In this document: in pieces, positions 4,719 to 17,366 of the stretch | Position numbering within the stretch: the first letter of the stretch is position 1 | Layout: each line of letters opens with the position of its first letter | DNA from: Xanthomonas sp. GPE 39 | Lineage (GTDB): Bacteria; Pseudomonadota; Gammaproteobacteria; Xanthomonadales; Xanthomonadaceae | Length of the DNA: 64,000 nucleotides | Direction: 5' to 3' | NCBI RefSeq assembly: GCF_000963005.1 | Contig: NZ_JZHZ01000007.1 | Coordinates: forward strand, 3,192,550-3,256,549 | Position numbers and translations under genes: made by a program | Notes under the pieces: generated by a model | The model's database searches: none | Told to the model about the DNA's origin: nothing | Seen by the model: the letters and a program-made list of their open reading frames with translations, nothing else

Positions 4719-7712
<2,994 letters not shown>

Positions 7713-7892
7713 GGTAAAGCGTCGGGCCGTGTGCCTGCCAAGAAGCAGCCGCATGGCGCTTGGCAGCGGCTGGCGGCGCGCCAGCATGGTGCAGCGATTT
7801 GTCTGCATCTCCCACACAGGGCATGCGTATGCTCGCTACATCGGCGGCAGCTTCAGCGCACGCTCTCTATGGAATGGAGACAGACAGACAAA

Positions 7893-10181
7893 ATGGCGTT
7901 CTATGCACATTCGACCGAACGCCGCGATCGCAGCGATTGGCAGGGCCTGGCGGATCATCTAAATAGCGTCGGTGAGCGTGCTGCGTGCCACGCCGAGACA
8001 TTCGGCGGACAACAGATGGCCCGCGTCAGTGGGAAATTGCACGATCTCGGCAAGTACACCGCAAAATTCCAGGCGCGCCTGGACGGCGACCCTACCAAGG
8101 TGGATCACGCCACTTGGGGCGCGCGGATTGCTTGTGCGCGTTATGGCGATGGCGGCAAGCTGTTGGCCTACGCCATCGCCGGACATCATGCTGGGCTGGC
8201 GGACGGACGCCAGGACAAAGACTCCTCTCGCACCTCGCTGCACGAGCGGCTGTCGGAGGAGTACCGCGCACAAGCGTTGCCTCCCTTATTACCGGACTGG
8301 GAACACGAACTGACGCTACCAACCAAGCTGGAACTTCCACAGGGCTTCGCCCGCCATCCCCGTCCAGACCGCCGCGCCTTCCAGATGACGCTACTGGCGC
8401 GGATGATCTTCTCCTGCCTGGTGGATGCCGATTTCGTCGATACCGATGACTTCTACCGGCGCATTGAGGGCCGCAAGACACGCGAAGAAGAGGTGGGTAG
8501 GCGACCAACACTGGTAGAACTGCGCGAACGCCTCGACACGCATTTGGCTGGACTCCCGAGCGAAGGGGGCATCAATCCGGTACGCGCACAGATCCTGCGC
8601 GACGTGCGCGGCAAGGCCCATCTGCGCCCAGGCCTGTTCTCACTCACCGTGCCAACCGGCGGCGGCAAGACCCTGGCATCGCTGGCATTCGCACTGGACC
8701 ACGCCATCGCGCACGGACTGCGCCGGGTGATCTACGTCATCCCGTTCACCAGCATCGTCGACCAGACCGCTGCAGTCTTCCGCCATGCGCTCGGCGAGCA
8801 GGAAAACGACAATGTAGTGCTGGAACATCACAGCGCCTTCTTCGACGATCCCGGCAAGGCGCTGCAGGCAATCGAAAAGCGCAAACTGGCGATGGAAAAC
8901 TGGGACGCACCGATCGTCGTCACCACCGCCGTGCAGTTTTTCGAGAGCCTGTTTGCCGACCGCCCCTCGCGCTGCCGCAAGCTGCACAACATCGCCGGCA
9001 GTGTGGTGATTCTGGACGAAGCACAGACCCTACCACACAAATTGTTGCGCCCCTGCGTGGCGCTGCTGGACGAGCTGGCGCGCAACTACCGGGTCAGCCC
9101 GGTACTGTGTACCGCTACCCAACCCGCGCTGCGCCAGGATCAGGGCTTCGCCGGTGGCCTCGAACAGGTCATCGAATTGGCGGAGGAACCGGAGGCGCTG
9201 TACACGCAACTGCGTCGTGTGCGCGTGCGGCATGTCGGCCCTCTGGACGACGATGCACTGGCCGAGCAGCTCCGGCAACGCGAACAGGTGTTATGCATCG
9301 TCAACAACCGCCGCCACGCACACGCCCTGTTCGACGCAATCGCCGATCAACCGGGCGCACGCCACCTGACCACGCTGATGCATGCGCGACATCGCAGTGT
9401 GGTGCTCGCACAGATACGAAAAGATTTGCAGGAAGGTCGGCCATGCCGAATTGTCTCAAGCAGTTTGATTGAAGCTGGGGTCGATCTGAGCGTGCCGCTG
9501 GTGCTACGCGCCGAGGCAGGCCTGGATTCCATTGCCCAGGCCGCTGGTCGCTGCAATCGCAACATGGAATGGGACATCGACAGCAGCGAAGTACGCGTCT
9601 TCGCGCCAACCAACAAAAACTGGAAGCCGCCGGATGCACTGAAACTGTTCGCCGAAGTGTTCCGCGATGTCGAGCGCGAGCATCACAGCGACCTGTTAGC
9701 AATGGACGCCATCCACACCTACTTTCGCAAGCTCTACCATCGCCTTGGTGATGGCAGACTCGACAACGAAGCAATCCTGGACCTACTGCGCAAGTCCACC
9801 ATCGACAACCTTCCCTTGGACACACTTGCGCGCAAGTTCAACGTGATCCAGACCACCATGCGCCCATTGATCGTGCCTTACGCCCCCTACGCGATGGAGT
9901 CGAACAAGGAAGTACCCGAGGTCGCCGACGTCCTACGCGAGCTTGAGCATGCCGAGCGTGTCAGCGTGGCCGGCGCGGCCCGCCGCCTGCAACCCTGGCT
10001 GGTGCAGGTCCCCGAGCAGGCCTACAAAGCGCTCTGGCAGGCGCACGCCATCGCTCCGGTAGCACCGGAGCGCTACGGCGAGCAGTTCATGCACCTACGC
10101 AATCCACGCCTGTACGACGCCCGGTTCGGGTTGCATTGGGACAACCCGCAGTTTTTGGAGGCTCAGGGCAATGTATGCTGA
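7893..10181 (+). CDS. cas3: CRISPR-associated nuclease-helicase Cas3 (type I-C)
   Basis: A 762-aa protein with the HD nuclease domain first and the SF2 helicase second. HD residues are seen in KLHDLGKY (His50-Asp51), DHATWGA (His72) and GHHAGL (His98/99). Helicase motifs are VPTGGGKT (Walker A, about 254-260), ILDEAQ (374-377), LCTATQP and SSSLIEAGVDLS / AGRCNR. Cas3 is recruited to Cascade R-loops and degrades the displaced strand. The start MAFYAHSTE at 7893 was chosen because family members begin this way and GGAG lies upstream at 7876-7879; an in-frame ATG at 7869 would add 8 residues. It is first in the cas locus and is separated from cas5 by a 382-bp AT-richer segment. Confidence 0.95.
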   Translation: MAFYAHSTERRDRSDWQGLADHLNSVGERAACHAETFGGQQMARVSGKLHDLGKYTAKFQARLDGDPTKVDHATWGARIACARYGDGGKLLAYAIAGHHAGLADGRQDKDSSRTSLHERLSEEYRAQALPPLLPDWEHELTLPTKLELPQGFARHPRPDRRAFQMTLLARMIFSCLVDADFVDTDDFYRRIEGRKTREEEVGRRPTLVELRERLDTHLAGLPSEGGINPVRAQILRDVRGKAHLRPGLFSLTVPTGGGKTLASLAFALDHAIAHGLRRVIYVIPFTSIVDQTAAVFRHALGEQENDNVVLEHHSAFFDDPGKALQAIEKRKLAMENWDAPIVVTTAVQFFESLFADRPSRCRKLHNIAGSVVILDEAQTLPHKLLRPCVALLDELARNYRVSPVLCTATQPALRQDQGFAGGLEQVIELAEEPEALYTQLRRVRVRHVGPLDDDALAEQLRQREQVLCIVNNRRHAHALFDAIADQPGARHLTTLMHARHRSVVLAQIRKDLQEGRPCRIVSSSLIEAGVDLSVPLVLRAEAGLDSIAQAAGRCNRNMEWDIDSSEVRVFAPTNKNWKPPDALKLFAEVFRDVEREHHSDLLAMDAIHTYFRKLYHRLGDGRLDNEAILDLLRKSTIDNLPLDTLARKFNVIQTTMRPLIVPYAPYAMESNKEVPEVADVLRELEHAERVSVAGAARRLQPWLVQVPEQAYKALWQAHAIAPVAPERYGEQFMHLRNPRLYDARFGLHWDNPQFLEAQGNVC

Positions 10182-10189
10182 GTAAAAAA

Positions 10190-10213
10190 ACTACAGTTGA
10201 ACTTTCATAAGAA
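10190..10213 (-). promoter_or_regulatory. Predicted target of the solo crRNA-like guide, with TTC PAM
   Basis: On the minus strand, TTC (10213-10211) is followed by TTATGAAAGTTCAACTGTAG (10210-10191). This aligns to the guide at 10475-10494 with 17 of 20 positions matched; one extra target base (an A at 10204 or 10205) lies at guide position 6, and the mismatches are at guide positions 6, 12 and 18. TTC is the usual PAM of type I-C systems. The site is just after the cas3 stop and 50-70 bp before the start of the 64-codon ORF, where a promoter would be expected, although no clear -35/-10 pair is recognisable. Confidence 0.7.
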
Positions 10214-10261
10214 GTTCTGGCAGTATGAGCATACCCAATACGCCAAGCAGGTAGTCCAGCC

Positions 10262-10456
10262 ATGTCTCAGCTCAGGAAGGAAGAGAAGGATTCCAGCTAT
10301 TCCATCATCAGCCTGCGATTGCACATCAAGAGCAAAGACAAGCTTTCTGTGTGGACTTGGGTGTTTTTCGTTCTCTTTATAGCGGTGATTGTCGTTCTCC
10401 ATAGGCTGGTGATGAGCACCCCATGGCTTGGGGAGCTAATGAAGCAATTGTTCTGA
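10262..10456 (+). CDS. Small putative membrane protein between cas3 and cas5 (CreT-like candidate)
   Basis: A 64-residue ORF of unknown family. Residues 1-30 are charged (KEEKD, KSKDK); residues 31-46 form one hydrophobic helix (WTWVFFVLFIAVIVVL), followed by a short amphipathic tail. A weak AGGT lies 9 bases before the ATG. Codon use is unlike the neighbours (ATA, AGG and many T-ending codons in a GC-rich genome). Its stop codon sits in the loop of the pseudo-repeat hairpin that begins the solo crRNA-like unit, and the DNA upstream is the site that guide matches. By analogy with CreTA modules it could be a toxin held silent by Cascade, but no toxin homology is visible. It could also be a Cas accessory protein or a chance ORF. 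Confidence 0.5.
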   Translation: MSQLRKEEKDSSYSIISLRLHIKSKDKLSVWTWVFFVLFIAVIVVLHRLVMSTPWLGELMKQLF

Positions 10457-10524
10457 AGGAACGTGGATTGAAACTTATGTAGTTCGACTGTGGTGAAAAC
10501 CCGCCCCTCCCAACAGGGAGGGGC
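10450..10524 (+). ncRNA. Solo crRNA-like unit (CreA/CreR-like): pseudo-repeat, guide, hairpin
   Basis: The first pseudo-repeat has a short hairpin GTTC-TGAAG-GAAC (10450-10462) followed by GTGGATTGAAAC; bases 10462-10474 equal the last 13 bases of the CRISPR repeat, including the 11-base Cas5d 5' handle. The guide follows (10475 to about 10502). Next is a 9-bp perfect stem GCCCCTCCC-AACA-GGGAGGGGC (10503-10524), which resembles the hairpin half of the repeat in shape but not in sequence and could be a second pseudo-repeat. The guide matches 10190-10210 upstream, mismatched only at positions 6, 12 and 18. CreA antitoxin RNAs of CreTA modules and CreR autorepressor RNAs have this architecture; assignment to either is inference. 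Confidence 0.7.
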
Positions 10525-10563: not shown

Positions 10564-11238
10564 ATGAGCTACGGAGTCAGGCTCCATATCTGGGGCGAGC
10601 GGGCGCTGTTTACGCGTCCTGAAATGAAAGTCGAGCGGATGTCGTATGACATCATCACACCATCGGCAGCACGGGGAATTCTGGAAGCAATCCACTGGAA
10701 GCCTGCGATCCGCTGGGTGGTGGACAGCATCCAGGTACTCAAGCCCATCCGCTTCGAGTCGATCCGCCGCAACGAAGTTGGTGGCAAGCTCTCGGCTGCA
10801 AGCGTCAGCAAGGCGATCAAAGCAGGACGCACCGATGGCTTGGTCAGCTATGTGGATGAAGATCGGCAACAGCGCGCCGCCACCCTCCTGCGCGATGTCG
10901 GCTACGTCATCGCCGCGCACTTCGAGTTGAGCGACAAGGCTGGCCCCGACGACAACGTCGGCAAACATTTAGACATCTTCAACCGCCGCGCGCGGCGCGG
11001 GCAATGCTTCCAGGCACCTTGCCTGGGCACCCGCGAATTCCCCGCCAGTTTCGCGCTGCTCGAAGCCGACGCCGCGCCACCGACCAGCGATCCGTCGCTG
11101 TGCGGAGAACGCGACCTGGGCTGGATGCTGCACGACATCGACTTTGCCGATGGCATGACGCCGCGTTTCTTCCGCGCACACATGGTGGATGGTCGCGTCG
11201 TGGTGCCACCCCTGCACGACGACGGGGTACACACATGA
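10564..11238 (+). CDS. cas5: CRISPR-associated protein Cas5d, crRNA-processing endonuclease (type I-C)
   Basis: A 224-aa protein. In type I-C, which lacks Cas6, Cas5d cuts each repeat at the 3' base of its hairpin and stays on the 5' handle as a Cascade subunit. The N-terminus YGVRLHIWGERALFTRPEMK and the following DIITPSAARGILEAIHWKP are typical of Cas5d. A strong GGGAGGA lies just upstream of the ATG. Its last four bases overlap the first codon of cas8c (ATGA, 11235-11238), indicating translational coupling. Confidence 0.95.
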   Translation: MSYGVRLHIWGERALFTRPEMKVERMSYDIITPSAARGILEAIHWKPAIRWVVDSIQVLKPIRFESIRRNEVGGKLSAASVSKAIKAGRTDGLVSYVDEDRQQRAATLLRDVGYVIAAHFELSDKAGPDDNVGKHLDIFNRRARRGQCFQAPCLGTREFPASFALLEADAAPPTSDPSLCGERDLGWMLHDIDFADGMTPRFFRAHMVDGRVVVPPLHDDGVHT

Positions 11239-13076
11239 TCCTCTCCGCACTCGCCGACTTTTATCAGCGGCTACTGGACGATCCCGAGTCTGGTATCGCC
11301 GCACCCGGCTACAGCCAGGAGAAGATCGGCTACACCGTCGTGCTAGCCGCCGACGGCCGCGTCGTCGATGTAAATGACGAACACAGCACCGAGGGCAAAA
11401 AGCGGCTCGCCAAGACGATGAGCTTGCCAAAACCAGAAAAGCGCACGGCCGGAATCAAGTCCAACTTCCTATGGGACAAAACCAGCTACACACTCGGCAT
11501 CAGCGCCAACAGCAAGCGCAGCGAGCAGGAACATGCCGCTTTCATCGCCTTGCATCAGCAAGCACTGGCCGATAGCGACGATCCTGGCCTACGGGCGTTG
11601 CTGGCGTTTCTGCAAACGTGGACGCCTACCCAGTATGCGGACCACCCGAAGTTCGTCAGTCATGGCGAGGCCTTGTTGGATACGAACATCGTGTTCAAGC
11701 TGCAAGGCGACAGCGGTTATCTGCATCAGCGCACAGCCGCCCGTGCCGCTTGGGACCGACAACAAGGCCATGGCACTGATGGCCCCCAAGGCATCTGCCT
11801 AGTCAACGGCACGCATGCGCCGCTGGCGCGGTTGCATCCAGCCATCAAGGGGGTGAACGGCGCACAGAGTTCCGGCGCTTCCATCGTCTCGTTCAATCTC
11901 GAAGCCTTCACCTCCTACGGCAAAAGCCAGGGCGAGAACGCCCCTATCTCAGAACAAGCCGCCTTCGCTTACACCACCGCACTCAACCACCTGCTACGGC
12001 GCGACCCACACAATCGCCAGCGCGTGCAGATCGGCGACACCACCGTAGTGTTCTGGGCGCAAGCGAAAACGGCAAAACACGCACAAAATGCCGAGGACGT
12101 CTTCGCCGACTTCATGCGCGTCGACGAATCCGACGACCCCAGCATCGCTGACGGCCATGTCACCCGACGCCTACAGCTAGCCCTCGAACAAGTCAGACAG
12201 GCACGGCCCCTGCGCGAGTTGGACGACACACTGGACGACGACGCCCACATCTTCGTGCTCGGGCTGGCACCCAATGCCTCGCGGCTGTCTATCCGTTTCT
12301 GGGAGACACAAACGCTCGGCCAGTTCGCCAAACGCCTGGCCGACCACTACGACGATCTGACGCTCGTCCCATCGGCATGGAAACGCCCGCCGACGCCAGC
12401 CTACCTGGCACTGCAGACCGCCCCCATCTACGGCGAGCATGGCAAATCCAAGGCCGAAGACGTCTCCCCATTGCTCGCAGGCGAATTGACCCGGGCAATT
12501 CTTGCCGGCACACGCTATCCGGGAAACTTGCTCGGCGCGATCGTCATGCGCTTCCGCGCCGACGGACAACTCACTCCATTACGCATTGCGTTATGCCGAG
12601 CGGTCTTGGCACGCGATGCGCGTTTGAACACGCAACAAGGACTGCCCACCGACCAGAAGGAACCACCCATGAGCCTAGATACAGGCAATACCAATCCCGG
12701 CTACTTGCTAGGGCGACTGTTCGCATCGCTGGAAAACCTGCAACGTGCCGCGCTTGGCAACCAGATCAACGCCACCATCCGCGACCGCTACTATGGCGCA
12801 GCGTCGGCGACACCGGCCAGTATCTTCCCGGTGCTATTACGTAATGCGCATAACCACTTCGGCAAGCTGCGCAAAGAGAAGGCCGGCTTAGCGGTGAACT
12901 TGGAGAAGGAAATCGGCCAGATCGTCGACGCACTCACTCCAAGCTTCCCGCGTAGCTTGCAGATCCAGGAACAGGGCCGCTTCGCAATCGGCTACTACCA
13001 CCAGACCCAGGCGCGCTTCGCCCGCAACGACGGCCAGGACGCCCACGACACCACTTCCGAAGGAGAAAACGCATGA
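11235..13076 (+). CDS. cas8c: Cascade large subunit Cas8c (Csd1)
   Basis: A 613-aa type I-C large subunit that recognises the PAM and starts R-loop formation. The N-terminus [18 protein letters not shown] is characteristic of Csd1/Cas8c. The start at 11235 overlaps the cas5 stop, and the stop overlaps the cas7 start (13073-13076), giving a translationally coupled cas5-cas8c-cas7 block. An open frame extends upstream of 11235 inside cas5 but lacks family similarity. The last 135 codons also appear to be translated separately as Cas11c. Confidence 0.94.
12669..13076 (+). CDS. cas11c: Cas11c small subunit from an internal start within cas8c
   Basis: In type I-C systems the small Cascade subunit Cas11c is made by internal initiation in the 3' part of cas8c. 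Here an in-frame ATG at 12669 is preceded by a good Shine-Dalgarno, AAGGA at 12657-12661, with 7-base spacing, and would give a 135-aa, mostly helical protein starting [18 protein letters not shown]. Position, length (about 120-135 aa) and the ribosome-binding site all fit the known arrangement. That this start is used here is inference. Confidence 0.75.
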
Positions 13077-13939
13077 GCGCCATTGCCCACCGCTACGAGT
13101 TCGTTTACCTGTTCGATGTCACCAACGGCAACCCCAACGGCGATCCCGACGCCGGCAACCTGCCGCGACTGGACCCGGAAACCAACCGCGGGCTCGTCAC
13201 CGATGTGGCGCTCAAGCGAAAGATCCGCAACTACGTGGCGCTGGAAAAGGAAGGCCAATCCGGCTATGCGATCTACATGCAGGAAAAGTCGGTACTGAAC
13301 AACCAGCACAAGCAAGCTTATGCTGCACTGGGCATCGAACCGGAAGCCAAGAAACTGCCCAAGGACGAGGCCAAGGCACGCAAACTCACCGCGTGGATGT
13401 GCGAAAATTTCTTCGATGTGCGCAGCTTCGGCGCCGTGATGACCACCGAGGTCAACTCCGGACAAGTGCGCGGCCCCGTCCAACTCGCCTTTGCCAGTTC
13501 GGTGGAGCCGGTGCTGCCACTGGAAGTGTCGATCACCCGTATGGCTGTCACCAACGAGAGAGATCTCGAAAAAGAACGCACCATGGGCCGCAAGCACATC
13601 CTGCCCTACGGGCTATACCGCGTCCACGGCTTCATTTCCGCAAAACTGGCCGAGCGCACGGGTTTCTCCGAGGATGACCTGCAGTTACTGTGGCGTGCAC
13701 TCACCAATCTATTCGAGCACGACCGCTCCGCTGCACGCGGCGAGATGGCCGCACGCAAGCTGTTCGTGTTCGAGCACGAACATCCGATGGGTAACGCCCC
13801 GGCGCACGTGCTGTTCGACAAAATCAAAATCGAGCGAGACGAAGGCCCCGACAACGGACCAGCACGTAGCTTCACCGACTATAAAGTGGTCATCGATCGC
13901 GACCTGCCGGCTGGCATTACCTTGACCGAACTGTTCTGA
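13073..13939 (+). CDS. cas7: Cascade backbone protein Cas7 (Csd2)
   Basis: A 288-aa RAMP-fold protein that polymerises along the crRNA spacer to form the Cascade backbone. The segments [20 protein letters not shown] near the N-terminus and [11 protein letters not shown] in the middle are hallmarks of the Csd2 family. The start overlaps the cas8c stop by 4 bp; cas4 follows after 17 bp. Confidence 0.96.
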
Positions 13940-13956: not shown

Positions 13957-14589
13957 ATGGACGACGCCGACCTCATCCCGCTCTCCGCCCTGCAGCACTA
14001 CCTGTTTTGCCCGCGCCAGTGCGCGCTGATCCATGTGGAGCAGCAATGGGCGGAGAGCCGACAGACCGCCGAAGGGCGGCTGTTGCACCAGCGCGCCGAT
14101 GCGCCGCAGGCCGAGCGTCGGCGCGGCGTGCGTACCGTCACCGCGATGCCGTTGCTGTCGCTAGACCTGGGCATCACCGGCAAAGCCGATGTGGTGGAGT
14201 TCCATCGCGATGGCGACGGCGAGATCGCCTTCCCCGTGGAGTACAAGCGTGGCCGCCCCAAGACGCATCGCGCGGACGAAGTCCAGCTATGCGCGCAAGC
14301 CTTGTGTCTGGAGCATATGCTGGGACGCACAATCCCCAGCGGCGCCCTGTTCTATGGACAAACACGCCGACGCAAAGAGATTGCCTTCGACTCCGCCTTG
14401 CGCGACCTCACCCTGCGCACCATCGCCGATACCCGCGCAATGCTGCACACTGGCACCACACCGAGCGCGCGTTACGACGCACGGCGCTGCGATGCTTGCT
14501 CCCTGATCGACCTCTGCCAACCACGCCTGCTCGGCCAAGGCAGCGTCGAAACCTGGTTGCGCCGTCAGATCGACGCCGAGGAAGACTGA
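13957..14589 (+). CDS. cas4: CRISPR-associated exonuclease Cas4
   Basis: A 210-aa Fe-S RecB-like nuclease that trims prespacers and selects PAM-containing ends with Cas1-Cas2. Seen are the N-terminal Cys motif FCPRQC (about residues 17-22), nuclease motifs GKADVVEF and EYKRGRPK, and the C-terminal cluster CDACSLIDLC. cas1 starts 2 bp after its stop codon. Confidence 0.95.
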   Translation: MDDADLIPLSALQHYLFCPRQCALIHVEQQWAESRQTAEGRLLHQRADAPQAERRRGVRTVTAMPLLSLDLGITGKADVVEFHRDGDGEIAFPVEYKRGRPKTHRADEVQLCAQALCLEHMLGRTIPSGALFYGQTRRRKEIAFDSALRDLTLRTIADTRAMLHTGTTPSARYDARRCDACSLIDLCQPRLLGQGSVETWLRRQIDAEED

Positions 14590-14591
14590 AC

Positions 14592-15626
14592 ATGCGCCGC
14601 CAACTCAACACCCTGTACGCCACCACCGAAGGCGCCTGGCTACGCAAGGACGGCGCCAATATCGTCATGGAAGTCGAGCGGCAGGAGCGCGCCCGGTTAC
14701 CCGTGCACATGCTCGAGAGCCTGGTCTGCATTGGCCGCATCGCGGTCTCCCCGCAACTGCTCGGTTTCTGCGCCGAACAGGGCATCAGTATTTGCTACCT
14801 CACCCCACAGGGACGCTTTCTGGCGCGCGTCGAAGGCCCGGTCTCCGGCAACGTCTTGCTACGACGCGAGCAATACCGGCGCAGCGATGATCCGACGCGT
14901 TGCGCGGCCATTGTCCGCCACCTATTGGTGGGCAAGATCCACAACCAACGTGCGGTGCTTGCACGCGGCTGGCGCGACCATGGCGACCGACTGACCGACG
15001 TGCCCGCCTTTCAGCACGCATTGAAGCGGCTCAAACGCATTCCCCAGCGCATCCTCATCGAAACCGAGGTGGACGTGTTGCGTGGACTGGAAGGCGAAGC
15101 GGCACAGTCCTACTTCGGCGTTTTCGGTCAATTGGTGCGTGCAGAACAGCCCCTACTGCGCTTCGGCGGGCGCAATCGTCGACCACCCCGCGACGCCTTC
15201 AACGCTCTGCTCTCGTTCCTCTACACTCTGCTCACCCACGATTGCCGCTCGGCTCTGGAGACCGTCGGCCTGGACCCGGCGGTCGGCTTTCTGCATCGTG
15301 ACCGACCAGGGCGCCCGAGTCTCGCTCTGGATCTGGCCGAGGAATTCAGGCCTTTGCTCGGCGAGCGACTGGCGTTATCACTGATCAACCGCCGGCAATT
15401 GAACGAACGCGATTTCCAAGTCTTCGACAATGGTGCAGTCCTGCTGAAGGACGATGCACGCAAAACCGTGCTGATTGCTTATCAAGAACGCAAACGCGAG
15501 CAACTCCAGCATGCATTCCTCGGCGACAAGGTCGACATCGGCCTGTTGCCATTCGTCCAGGCGCAACTCCTGGCCCGGCATCTGCGCGGCGACCTGGATG
15601 GCTATCCCTCCTTTTTCTGGAAATAA
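14592..15626 (+). CDS. cas1: CRISPR integrase Cas1
   Basis: A 344-aa metal-dependent integrase that inserts new spacers at the leader end. Catalytic residues are visible: Glu167 in RGLEGEAAQSYF, His235 in GFLHRDRPG and Glu250 in LDLAEEFRP. The start MRRQLNTLYATT at 14592 directly follows cas4. The frame is open further upstream through cas4, but that part is a shadow. cas2 follows after 15 bp. Confidence 0.97.
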   Translation: MRRQLNTLYATTEGAWLRKDGANIVMEVERQERARLPVHMLESLVCIGRIAVSPQLLGFCAEQGISICYLTPQGRFLARVEGPVSGNVLLRREQYRRSDDPTRCAAIVRHLLVGKIHNQRAVLARGWRDHGDRLTDVPAFQHALKRLKRIPQRILIETEVDVLRGLEGEAAQSYFGVFGQLVRAEQPLLRFGGRNRRPPRDAFNALLSFLYTLLTHDCRSALETVGLDPAVGFLHRDRPGRPSLALDLAEEFRPLLGERLALSLINRRQLNERDFQVFDNGAVLLKDDARKTVLIAYQERKREQLQHAFLGDKVDIGLLPFVQAQLLARHLRGDLDGYPSFFWK

Positions 15627-15641
15627 AATGGCAATCGCCGC

Positions 15642-15932
15642 ATGATGGTCTTGGTCAGCTACGACGTCAGCACCAGCTCGCCGGGGGGCGATAAGCGCCT
15701 GCGCAAGGTCGCCAAAGCCTGTCGCGACCTGGGGCAACGCGTGCAGTTCTCGGTCTTCGAGATCGAAGTGGAGCCGGCGCAATGGACTGCACTAAGGCAA
15801 CGCCTTTGCGACCTCATCGACCCGGACATCGACAGCCTACGGCTCTACCATCTCGGCGCAAAGTGGGAAGCCCGCGTCGAGCACGTCGGCGCCAAACCCA
15901 GCCTCGACCTCAAAGGCCCCCTGATCTTTTGA
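15642..15932 (+). CDS. cas2: CRISPR adaptation protein Cas2
   Basis: A 96-aa ferredoxin-like protein; a Cas2 dimer bridges two Cas1 dimers in the integration complex. The N-terminus MMVLVSYDVST carries the conserved Asp at the end of strand 1, followed by RLRKVAKACRDLGQRVQFSV. Last cas gene; the leader and array follow on the same strand. Confidence 0.96.
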   Translation: MMVLVSYDVSTSSPGGDKRLRKVAKACRDLGQRVQFSVFEIEVEPAQWTALRQRLCDLIDPDIDSLRLYHLGAKWEARVEHVGAKPSLDLKGPLIF

Positions 15933-16117: not shown

Positions 16118-17366
16118 GTCGCGCCCTTACACGGGCGCGTGGATTGAAACGGGCAGTGCGACCAGTGAGTCGGCCTGCGACATGGTCGCGCCCTTACACG
16201 GGCGCGTGGATTGAAACACAGTGCCACTGATCTTCAACGACTTGCCCTTGTAGTCGCGCCCTTACACGGGCGCGTGGATTGAAACCAGCGCTGGGTTGAC
16301 GCCACTCGCATCAATCTCGGGTCGCGCCCTTACACGGGCGCGTGGATTGAAACATGACGGTCCACATGCGACGCTGGCCGTGGATGCGTCGCGCCCTTAC
16401 ACGGGCGCGTGGATTGAAACACAAGTCCAACGCGGCAAAGAATTGCAGCGGCGTCGCGCCCTTACACGGGCGCGTGGATTGAAACAAGTTAATCAAACGA
16501 CCATTAGTGCTGATGATGCTGTCGCGCCCTTACACGGGCGCGTGGATTGAAACATCGCGCTGGCCGATTGCGCAATGCCATCTTGCAGGTCGCGCCCTTA
16601 CACGGGCGCGTGGATTGAAACTTTGCACATAGTTAAGCGTTGTTGCCGCACCCTCGTCGCGCCCTTACACGGGCGCGTGGATTGAAACTCCAACGCCTCG
16701 CAGGCCATACATGACAAAGCTCCTGTCGCGCCCTTACACGGGCGCGTGGATTGAAACTTTTAGAATATCGAATTAAGCCTGAAGCACCCGAGGGTCGCGC
16801 CCTTACACGGGCGCGTGGATTGAAACATGAGCAAAGCAGCCCACCGAACAGCCACGGAAGGTCGCGCCCTTACACGGGCGCGTGGATTGAAACAGTTTTT
16901 GGGTTATTCCGGACGAAGCCGCTGTTAGTCGCGCCCTTACACGGGCGCGTGGATTGAAACACGTCCGTCAATGCGATGCTGCAAGTGCAAGCAACGTCGC
17001 GCCCTTACACGGGCGCGTGGATTGAAACTGGGCACAACCGCGCGTGATCAACGTCGTGCGTAGTCGCGCCCTTACACGGGCGCGTGGATTGAAACTGACC
17101 ATCCATGCGCTCGGTTCTTGCCGCACAGGCTGTCGCGCCCTTACACGGGCGCGTGGATTGAAACCTTACCAACGATGGGGCAGTCCTGTCGTGGGCAGGT
17201 CGCGCCCTTACACGGGCACGTGGATTGAAACATGTAAGCACCTCCTCCTATTGCCGTCATTGGTCGTCGCGCCCTTACACGGGCGCGTGGATTGAAACAC
17301 TCGCTGCGGACCAACGGGCAAACATTTCGAGCGGTCGCGCCCTTACACGGGCGCGCGGATTGAAAC
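16118..17366 (+). CRISPR. Type I-C CRISPR array, 19 repeats and 18 spacers
   Basis: The 33-bp repeat begins GTCGCGCCCTTACAC and ends GGGCGCGTGGATTGAAAC, with a 7-bp stem CGCGCCC/GGGCGCG and an 11-base handle TGGATTGAAAC. Repeats start at 16118, 16185, 16253, 16321, 16388, 16453, 16521, 16589, 16656, 16725, 16794, 16861, 16928, 16996, 17063, 17132, 17199, 17266 and 17334. Spacers are 32-36 bp and all different. All repeats are identical except number 17 (GGGCACG in the stem) and the last (GCGCGCGGATTG), which marks the glmS end as the old, leader-distal end. No spacer was seen to match elsewhere in the window. Confidence 0.99.

Follow-up and report, generated by a model that had tools for sequence, protein, structure and literature searches.

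In the 64,000-nucleotide (nt) stretch of the Xanthomonas sp. GPE 39 genome analyzed here (the window), the gap between cas3 and cas5d of a type I-C CRISPR-Cas locus harbors a cassette (10190-10524) that combines a guide resembling a CRISPR RNA (crRNA), seemingly left over from a mini-array of two repeats, with a target that this guide partly matches. As judged from the sequences, Cascade carrying this guide quite probably represses the gene of a small predicted membrane protein, a probable toxin whose release would follow the loss or inhibition of Cascade. The observations on which this proposal is built are the anatomy of the cassette, its protospacer-adjacent motif (PAM), the guide-target match, the covariation of guide and target across 16 groups of guides, free drift at guide positions 6 and 12, and ratios of nonsynonymous to synonymous substitution rates (dN/dS) well below 1 in the five pairs of small-protein genes that allowed an estimate.

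Guide, target and their covariation

The 382-nt gap contains, in this order, a 64-codon open reading frame (ORF), the end of a CRISPR repeat, the guide and a 9-bp hairpin. The repeat end (10462-10474, forward strand) is identical to the last 13 bases, CGTGGATTGAAAC, of the array repeat GTCGCGCCCTTACACGGGCGCGTGGATTGAAAC and includes the 11-nt 5′ tag, TGGATTGAAAC (10464-10474), which is abutted by a degenerate 5′ repeat stem-loop (10449-10463) containing the stop codon of the small ORF. The guide, TTATGTAGTTCGACTGTGGT (10475-10502), is followed by the 9-bp hairpin (10503-10524), which has no T-run and is probably a remnant of the second repeat, that is, the 3′ handle. The first 20 nt of the guide (10475-10494) match a target on the reverse strand (10190-10210) that directly adjoins TTC (10211-10213, reverse strand), which is the type I-C PAM and has been tested as such in a Xanthomonas type I-C system (PMC8406640). 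Guide and target match at 17 of 20 positions (1-5, 7-11, 13-17 and 19-20), with mismatches at 6, 12 and 18 and one extra target base at position 6 that is needed for the match. An earlier sequence-only reading of this DNA had described both the repeat end behind a small hairpin and the match beside TTC, and both descriptions are correct.

When all 17 non-sixth positions were required to match beside TTC within 420 nt upstream, with a one-base shift at position 6 allowed, 17/17 was reached neither by any of 20,000 shuffled guides, whose best score was 16, nor by any of 10,000 real 20-mers taken from the window, whose best score was 14. The bulged pattern, searched with up to three mismatches, has a single site in the genome, the target itself, with 0 mismatches, and the pattern without the bulge finds the guide itself alone. 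A caveat is that the window guide matches poorly when no bulge is allowed, its best ungapped site having 8 of 11 seed positions and lying at another place. A search of Rfam with E values up to 1 gives a sub-threshold match to CRISPR-DR9 at 10441-10474 (E 0.64) and one to NsiR4 at 10277-10346 (E 0.61), neither of which comes near the gathering score.

Similar modules are found in other type I-C loci (designated by L numbers). Scanning with the Cas5d protein of the window gave 80 loci of other genomes, the best 80 of 568 confirmed matches; a repeat end lies on the forward strand of the cas3-cas5 gap in 24 of them, and in 25 when L017, added by hand for a variant tag, GGAATAGAAAT, that was spotted by eye, is included. 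Cas5d was above the cut-off in 26 of the 395 family genomes and 34 of the 369 class genomes that were also searched, with the tag in 11 of 26 (window included) and 4 of 29 examined loci, respectively. The total is 37 modules in 16 guide groups, as grouped at 12/20 identity. In-register modules are also present outside Xanthomonas, for example in the environmental genera Oleiagrimonas (L018) and Sinimarinibacterium (L016). L100, L102 and L103, which have the same guides as L087, L017 and L038, were not recounted, and L036, L058, L087 and others with longer gaps (5 loci) were inspected by eye only. A loose-pattern search for array repeats in 20 module genomes proved unusable, with too many chance matches.

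For each module, the 34 nt after the tag were compared with both strands of the upstream DNA, over a distance of up to 420 nt, and the best match at positions 1-11 beside TTC or TTT was scored, position 6 being weighted equally with the other seed positions. At least 9 of 11 seed positions match in 24 of 26 own pairs of the first set compared with 10 of 650 swapped pairs, all ten being between modules of one guide group, and in 32 of 37 own pairs of the full set compared with 18 of 1,332 swaps. Swaps between different guide groups reach this level in 3 of 1,242 cases, and every one of the 16 groups has at least one in-register pair. The PAM of the 32 in-register modules is TTC in 27 and TTT in 5; in these regions, TTT is commoner than TTC (569 vs 461). 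If any trinucleotide is allowed, the best site reaches at least 9 in 33 modules and adjoins TTC in 26, TTT in 5, TTG in 1 and GCA in 1.

Mismatches in the 32 in-register pairs amount to 3/160 at positions 1-5, 22/32 at position 6 and 9/160 at positions 7-11, and then to 24/32 at position 12, 53/160 at positions 13-17, 19/32 at position 18 and 224/320 at positions 19-28, where the rate expected by chance with four equal bases is 75%. This profile omits the window, L029, L110, L111 and L117, because their best ungapped match is below 9/11. With one module per group (n = 16), position 6 differs from the other seed positions (9/16 vs 3/160, P = 6e-9) and position 12 from positions 13-17 (12/16 vs 29/80, P = 0.006), and position 18 does not (7/16 vs 29/80, P = 0.58); the representatives are the best-matching members of their groups, and high scores are therefore favored, whereas the swap test used all members. 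The proposal that selection for Cascade binding leaves every sixth position free is thereby upheld for positions 6 and 12 and not for position 18, which shows only a trend. The G-T wobbles that had been suggested for positions 12 and 18 are not enriched at position 12 (1/32). The covariation that the sequence-only reading had named as a check in related type I-C loci, except at sixth positions, is strongly evident in the 37 modules.

In type I-B, mutation of position 6 or 12 of a CreA guide is without effect, and the other ten of the first twelve positions are essential (PMC8501985). Free drift at positions 6 and 12 beside near-fixed neighbors is the signature of Cascade pairing. The six-base rhythm, together with the type I-B mutation data, therefore argues that selection keeps Cascade-type pairing and ignores what Cascade ignores.

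Cargo, promoter and proposed mechanism

The cargo of the window is an open frame of 64 codons (10262-10456, forward strand) for a 64-aa protein with one predicted transmembrane helix (residues about 30-52). AlphaFold2 predicts this helix with a local confidence score (pLDDT) of about 90 and the rest with low scores, so that the model as a whole scores low (mean pLDDT 68; predicted template modeling score 0.34). The 37 modules comprise 24 that have or formerly had a small protein with a hydrophobic stretch, 8 with a mini-ORF and 5 with no evident cargo. In the protein modules, the hydrophobic protein lies ahead of the tag and the target is on the reverse strand wherever a target was found, and in the mini-ORF modules, the mini-ORF follows a Shine-Dalgarno-like sequence and the targets are on the forward strand. 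The intact cargo proteins are 45-66 aa long, with starts chosen by us, and consist of a mostly polar N-terminal part and one hydrophobic stretch. Their dN/dS is 0.12-0.31 in five pairs, of which four have a dS of at least 0.8 and one, the window with L110, includes the altered frame of L110; three further pairs are not estimable.

The window protein matches no Pfam family above the cut-off, KilA-N included, and no PADLOC family, and none of 16 cargo members matches Pfam at E 0.01. A direct homolog search with the window ORF returns itself alone, and a search with an alignment (A1) returns 17 proteins of 46-69 aa, that of the window included, without an informative name. By analogy, and because ORF and guide appear to decay together, the window cargo is a probable toxin or membrane effector.

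A stop codon lies inside the tag or at most 8 nt before it in 16 of the 24 protein modules (L068 by eye). In L066, L067, L071, L081 and L082 it lies within the tag, so that cleavage by Cas5d ahead of the tag would yield a stop-less mRNA. The eight mini-ORFs are rich in the codons AGA and AGG, which make up 10 of 76 codons compared with 0.69% across the long ORFs of these loci (P = 1.6e-10, an optimistic value because we picked among several mini-ORFs in L017, L038 and L063). At least one such codon occurs in 7 of 8 mini-ORFs and two in a row in 3 of 8; known CreT RNAs contain two consecutive rare codons (PMC8501985). L135 and L136, which have no evident cargo and whose Cas5d is about 50% identical to that of the window, have a target start 57 and 82 nt before the tag and are candidates for pure autorepressors in type I-C.

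The target in the window probably overlaps the cargo promoter, a putative weak one that by its position in relatives would lie at 10197-10226 on the forward strand, with the -35 element TTGAAC (10197-10202), an 18-nt spacer and the -10 element CAGTAT (10221-10226). The guiding relatives are L018 (TTGTAA-17-TAGTAT), L029 (TTGCTA-17-TAATCT) and L111 (TTGCAA-17-TAGGCT). The putative -35 begins 13 nt ahead of the PAM in these three and 14 nt ahead of it in the window, where the extra base would, in our reading, also stretch the promoter spacer to 18. The promoter that had been predicted at about 10190-10260 is thus suggested by relatives, but a promoter and terminator scan of the window found neither, and our own scoring favored another candidate, TTCATA-17-GAGCAT. 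In 8 of 12 modules with forward-strand targets, a promoter of the form TTGANN, 16-18 nt, TA begins 39-46 nt past the target start; the same pattern begins at 55 nt in L087, and three modules have none by this pattern. In most modules with reverse-strand targets, the PAM is flanked by the best-scoring -35 and -10 or is located just upstream of the -35, most clearly in L141 and L145 (TTGACA-16-TATACT); in L012, L042, L067, L080 and L099 of this class the best-scoring promoter lies away from the target.

The 3′ hairpin begins 18-43 nt past the guide start, and at least five T within the 10 nt after it are present in just 3 of 37 modules; it is therefore not a standard terminator. After the hairpin of L083, L141 and L145 comes TGGATTGA or TGGATTAA, a recognizable repeat sequence, and the hairpin is plainly the second repeat there.

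According to the mechanism proposed here, the transcript from the cargo promoter would carry both the cargo and the guide, and Cas5d would trim it at the 11-nt tag. Cascade loaded with the guide would then return to the promoter, where its binding over or beside the -35 would block RNA polymerase. Interference by the Xanthomonas type I-C system requires at least 27 matched bases (PMC8406640), and the pairing ends near position 20, so that Cascade would bind its own genome and not cut it. If Cascade were lost or inhibited, the cargo would be released, and its protein may then harm the cell that produces it. Because the 3′ hairpin has no T-run, the promoter may also feed cas5d-cas8c-cas7, and with such read-through the loss of Cascade would raise cargo and Cascade alike. 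Control of the whole stretch cas5-cas2, which the sequence-only reading had also raised, is possible. A wider model is offered only tentatively: the cas3-cas5 junction might be a general slot for swappable Cascade-silenced cargo, in which a class of membrane-miniprotein toxins would have its stop codon built into the 5′ repeat of the guide, and Cas5d might both make the guide and cut the 3′ end of the toxin mRNA, as a two-layer antitoxin that would also report Cascade loss to the downstream Cascade genes.

Competing explanations and the state of the window copy

Several observations weigh against the repression of a toxin gene by guide-loaded Cascade. No such tag was found in 55 of the 80 type I-C loci, the small proteins differ strongly among groups and match no toxin family, and a stem of at least 4 pairs just before the tag, as expected for Cas5d, is present in only 21 of 37 modules, a count without a chance control. 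The window copy needs a one-base bulge for its guide-target match, L029, L110, L111 and L117 are likewise not in plain register, and the putative window promoter is weak, with no consensus promoter found in the scan.

One alternative, which is possible but rather unlikely, is that the guide is a CreR-like autorepressor that chiefly tunes cas5d-cas8c-cas7, the small ORF being a passenger. The window target is located inside the run of cas genes, directly upstream of the small ORF. Matched guides with no evident cargo in L042, L062, L065, L135 and L136 favor autorepression, as does the scarcity of T-runs after the 3′ hairpin, since transcription may continue into cas5d. This explanation is weakened by a small hydrophobic protein, present or former, at the same place in 24 of 37 modules, with low dN/dS in the five pairs that allowed an estimate, and by the CreT-like mini-ORFs in 8 modules. 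It is also disfavored by the many loci without a cassette in which the cas3-cas5 gap is merely 12-60 nt long, and which therefore have little room for a cas5d promoter.

It is similarly improbable that the window module, having formerly worked, is now a drifting remnant whose guide silences nothing, but signs of decay are present. The window shares its guide group with L029, L110, L111, L117, L016 and L099, and the extra target base at position 6 occurs in the window copy only. This base had been taken as part of the Cascade pattern, a view that its restriction to one copy does not support; it may mark decay rather than tolerance, because L029, L110, L111 and L117 are also out of register. L110 and L111 have a small ORF with an altered frame. 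G019 (L117/L148) carries two copies of one insertion sequence in tandem, recognized by eye, at the 3′ end of this ORF (L148, G019:C1:4232500-4235600), and the tag and guide are intact behind the pair. Damaged frames occur in 3 of 5 out-of-register protein modules compared with 1 of 19 in-register ones (L014; P = 0.018), in a post hoc comparison with the damage judged by us.

From these sequences it looks as if the guide drifts after loss of the cargo and is kept only while there is something to silence, and the window copy and its nearest kin appear to show partial decay. The extra base and the weak promoter would suit a complete loss of function, as would the register of the relatives and the insertions in G019, but all 17 non-sixth positions of the window guide still pair and its ORF is open for 64 codons, with a dN/dS of about 0.27 against L099.

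That the guide RNA acts as an antisense RNA on the mRNA leader, with no part played by Cascade, is very unlikely. In favor of this idea, the guide is complementary to the forward strand where the target is on the reverse strand, but 12 of the 32 in-register modules have targets on the forward strand and hence a guide of the same sense as the mRNA, and neither a PAM nor a six-base rhythm plays a role in antisense pairing. A plain array remnant or a Racr-like solo-repeat RNA of the phage type, either one lacking a chromosomal target, for which solo repeats outside arrays in viral genomes provide a precedent (PMC10651486), is scarcely credible in view of guide-target covariation in 32 of 37 modules. 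A CreA-like guide that controls the small ORF, as was proposed from the window alone, stays the best reading.

Genomic setting and relation to known systems

The window locus has the gene set of type I-C, with cas3 (7731-10181; this is the longest ORF, and the true start is possibly further in), the Cascade genes cas5d (10564-11238), cas8c (csd1) and cas7 (csd2) (together 10564-13939), and cas4, cas1 and cas2 (13957-15932), all on the forward strand, followed on the same strand by an array (16118-17366) of nineteen 33-nt repeats with the repeat end ATTGAAAC. Upstream of cas3, at 7122-7171, are two 25-nt tandem copies, CACCAAATGAGCACACTCCTCCACG, that are 92% alike. The 13-base repeat end occurs 20 times in the 3.53 Mb genome, with 18 copies in the array, one in the window cassette and one in another degenerate two-repeat mini-array, which is located far from cas genes (C1:2830241; L001:1480-1600) and downstream of a 3-hydroxyacyl-CoA dehydrogenase-like gene (named by eye). 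This mini-array consists of the tag CGTGGATTGAAAC, a 33-nt spacer and a second repeat, GTCGTGCACTCACGAGTACGTGAATTGAAAT. No convincing target of its spacer was found in L001, the window or a genome pattern search; the mini-array is possibly another regulatory guide. In five type I-C loci, L033 (3660-4004), L022, L049, L053 and L060, the cas3-cas5 gap holds another gene (114 aa in L033) and no guide. This gene looks GIY-YIG-like by eye (YPNGKIYVG), but a Pfam search with the L033 protein gave no match at E 0.1. It seems that the gap also accommodates other kinds of cargo.

Systematic discovery of modules of this kind has been described as a major challenge because their guide and toxin RNAs are poorly conserved (PMC8501985). 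Here a constant location and a repeat tag, with the six-base rhythm as confirmation, led to 37 modules of a common CRISPR subtype, whose cargo is of three kinds. Should the cargo be toxic, proteins that annotation leaves unnamed would protect many type I-C systems from loss and from anti-CRISPRs. The natural guide-target pairs are also an evolutionary read-out of Cascade pairing in cells, in which positions 1-5 and 7-11 pair nearly always, 13-17 mostly, and 6 and 12 not; passages on type I-C Cascade in PMC7684278 contain nothing on the sixth base. The literature searched describes no such module in type I-C, and a mention in the founding CreTA papers is possible.

CreTA modules have been described in haloarchaeal type I-B (PMC8501985) and Acinetobacter type I-F (PMC10097628) systems (see also PMC9458426). 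As in CreTA, a crRNA-like guide derived from degenerate repeats, here a repeat end and a 3′ hairpin outside the array, lies beside the cas genes and partly matches a site with the right PAM near the promoter of a small gene, with free sixth positions; in the window this match includes one bulge, and the promoter is a putative one. The dispensability of guide positions 6 and 12 in type I-B CreTA parallels the drift observed here (PMC8501985). Type I-F CreTA has 17 of 20 pairs (all but 6, 11 and 18) and is located in the cas3-csy1 gap (PMC10097628). The rare-codon mini-ORFs of the forward-strand class, present in 8 modules, also resemble CreTA by their sequence. Unlike CreTA, the modules belong to type I-C, the window cargo is a membrane miniprotein with a 64-codon frame and low dN/dS rather than a toxic small RNA, and the stop codon stands beside or inside the tag.

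Protein cargo combined with a CreA-type guide is a feature of CrePA, whose cargo is silenced by Cascade (PMC12737573), and the window has protein cargo. CreP is typically a KilA-N domain protein (PMC12737573), whereas the proteins here have one hydrophobic stretch, and that of the window matches neither KilA-N nor another Pfam family above the cut-off. A CreP of the KilA-N type halts cell division. A guide that partly matches a promoter in the cas locus is shared with CreR (PMC12737573; PMC13131331), which has been named for types I-B, I-E and V-A (PMC13131331); the present modules differ in being type I-C and in mostly having a cargo gene, the five cargo-less modules being closest to CreR. 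Because the cargo is a protein, the window module is not a strict CreTA, and because KilA-N is absent, it is not a strict CrePA. By analogy with these systems, the best reading is that the modules are CreTA/CrePA-like modules of type I-C.
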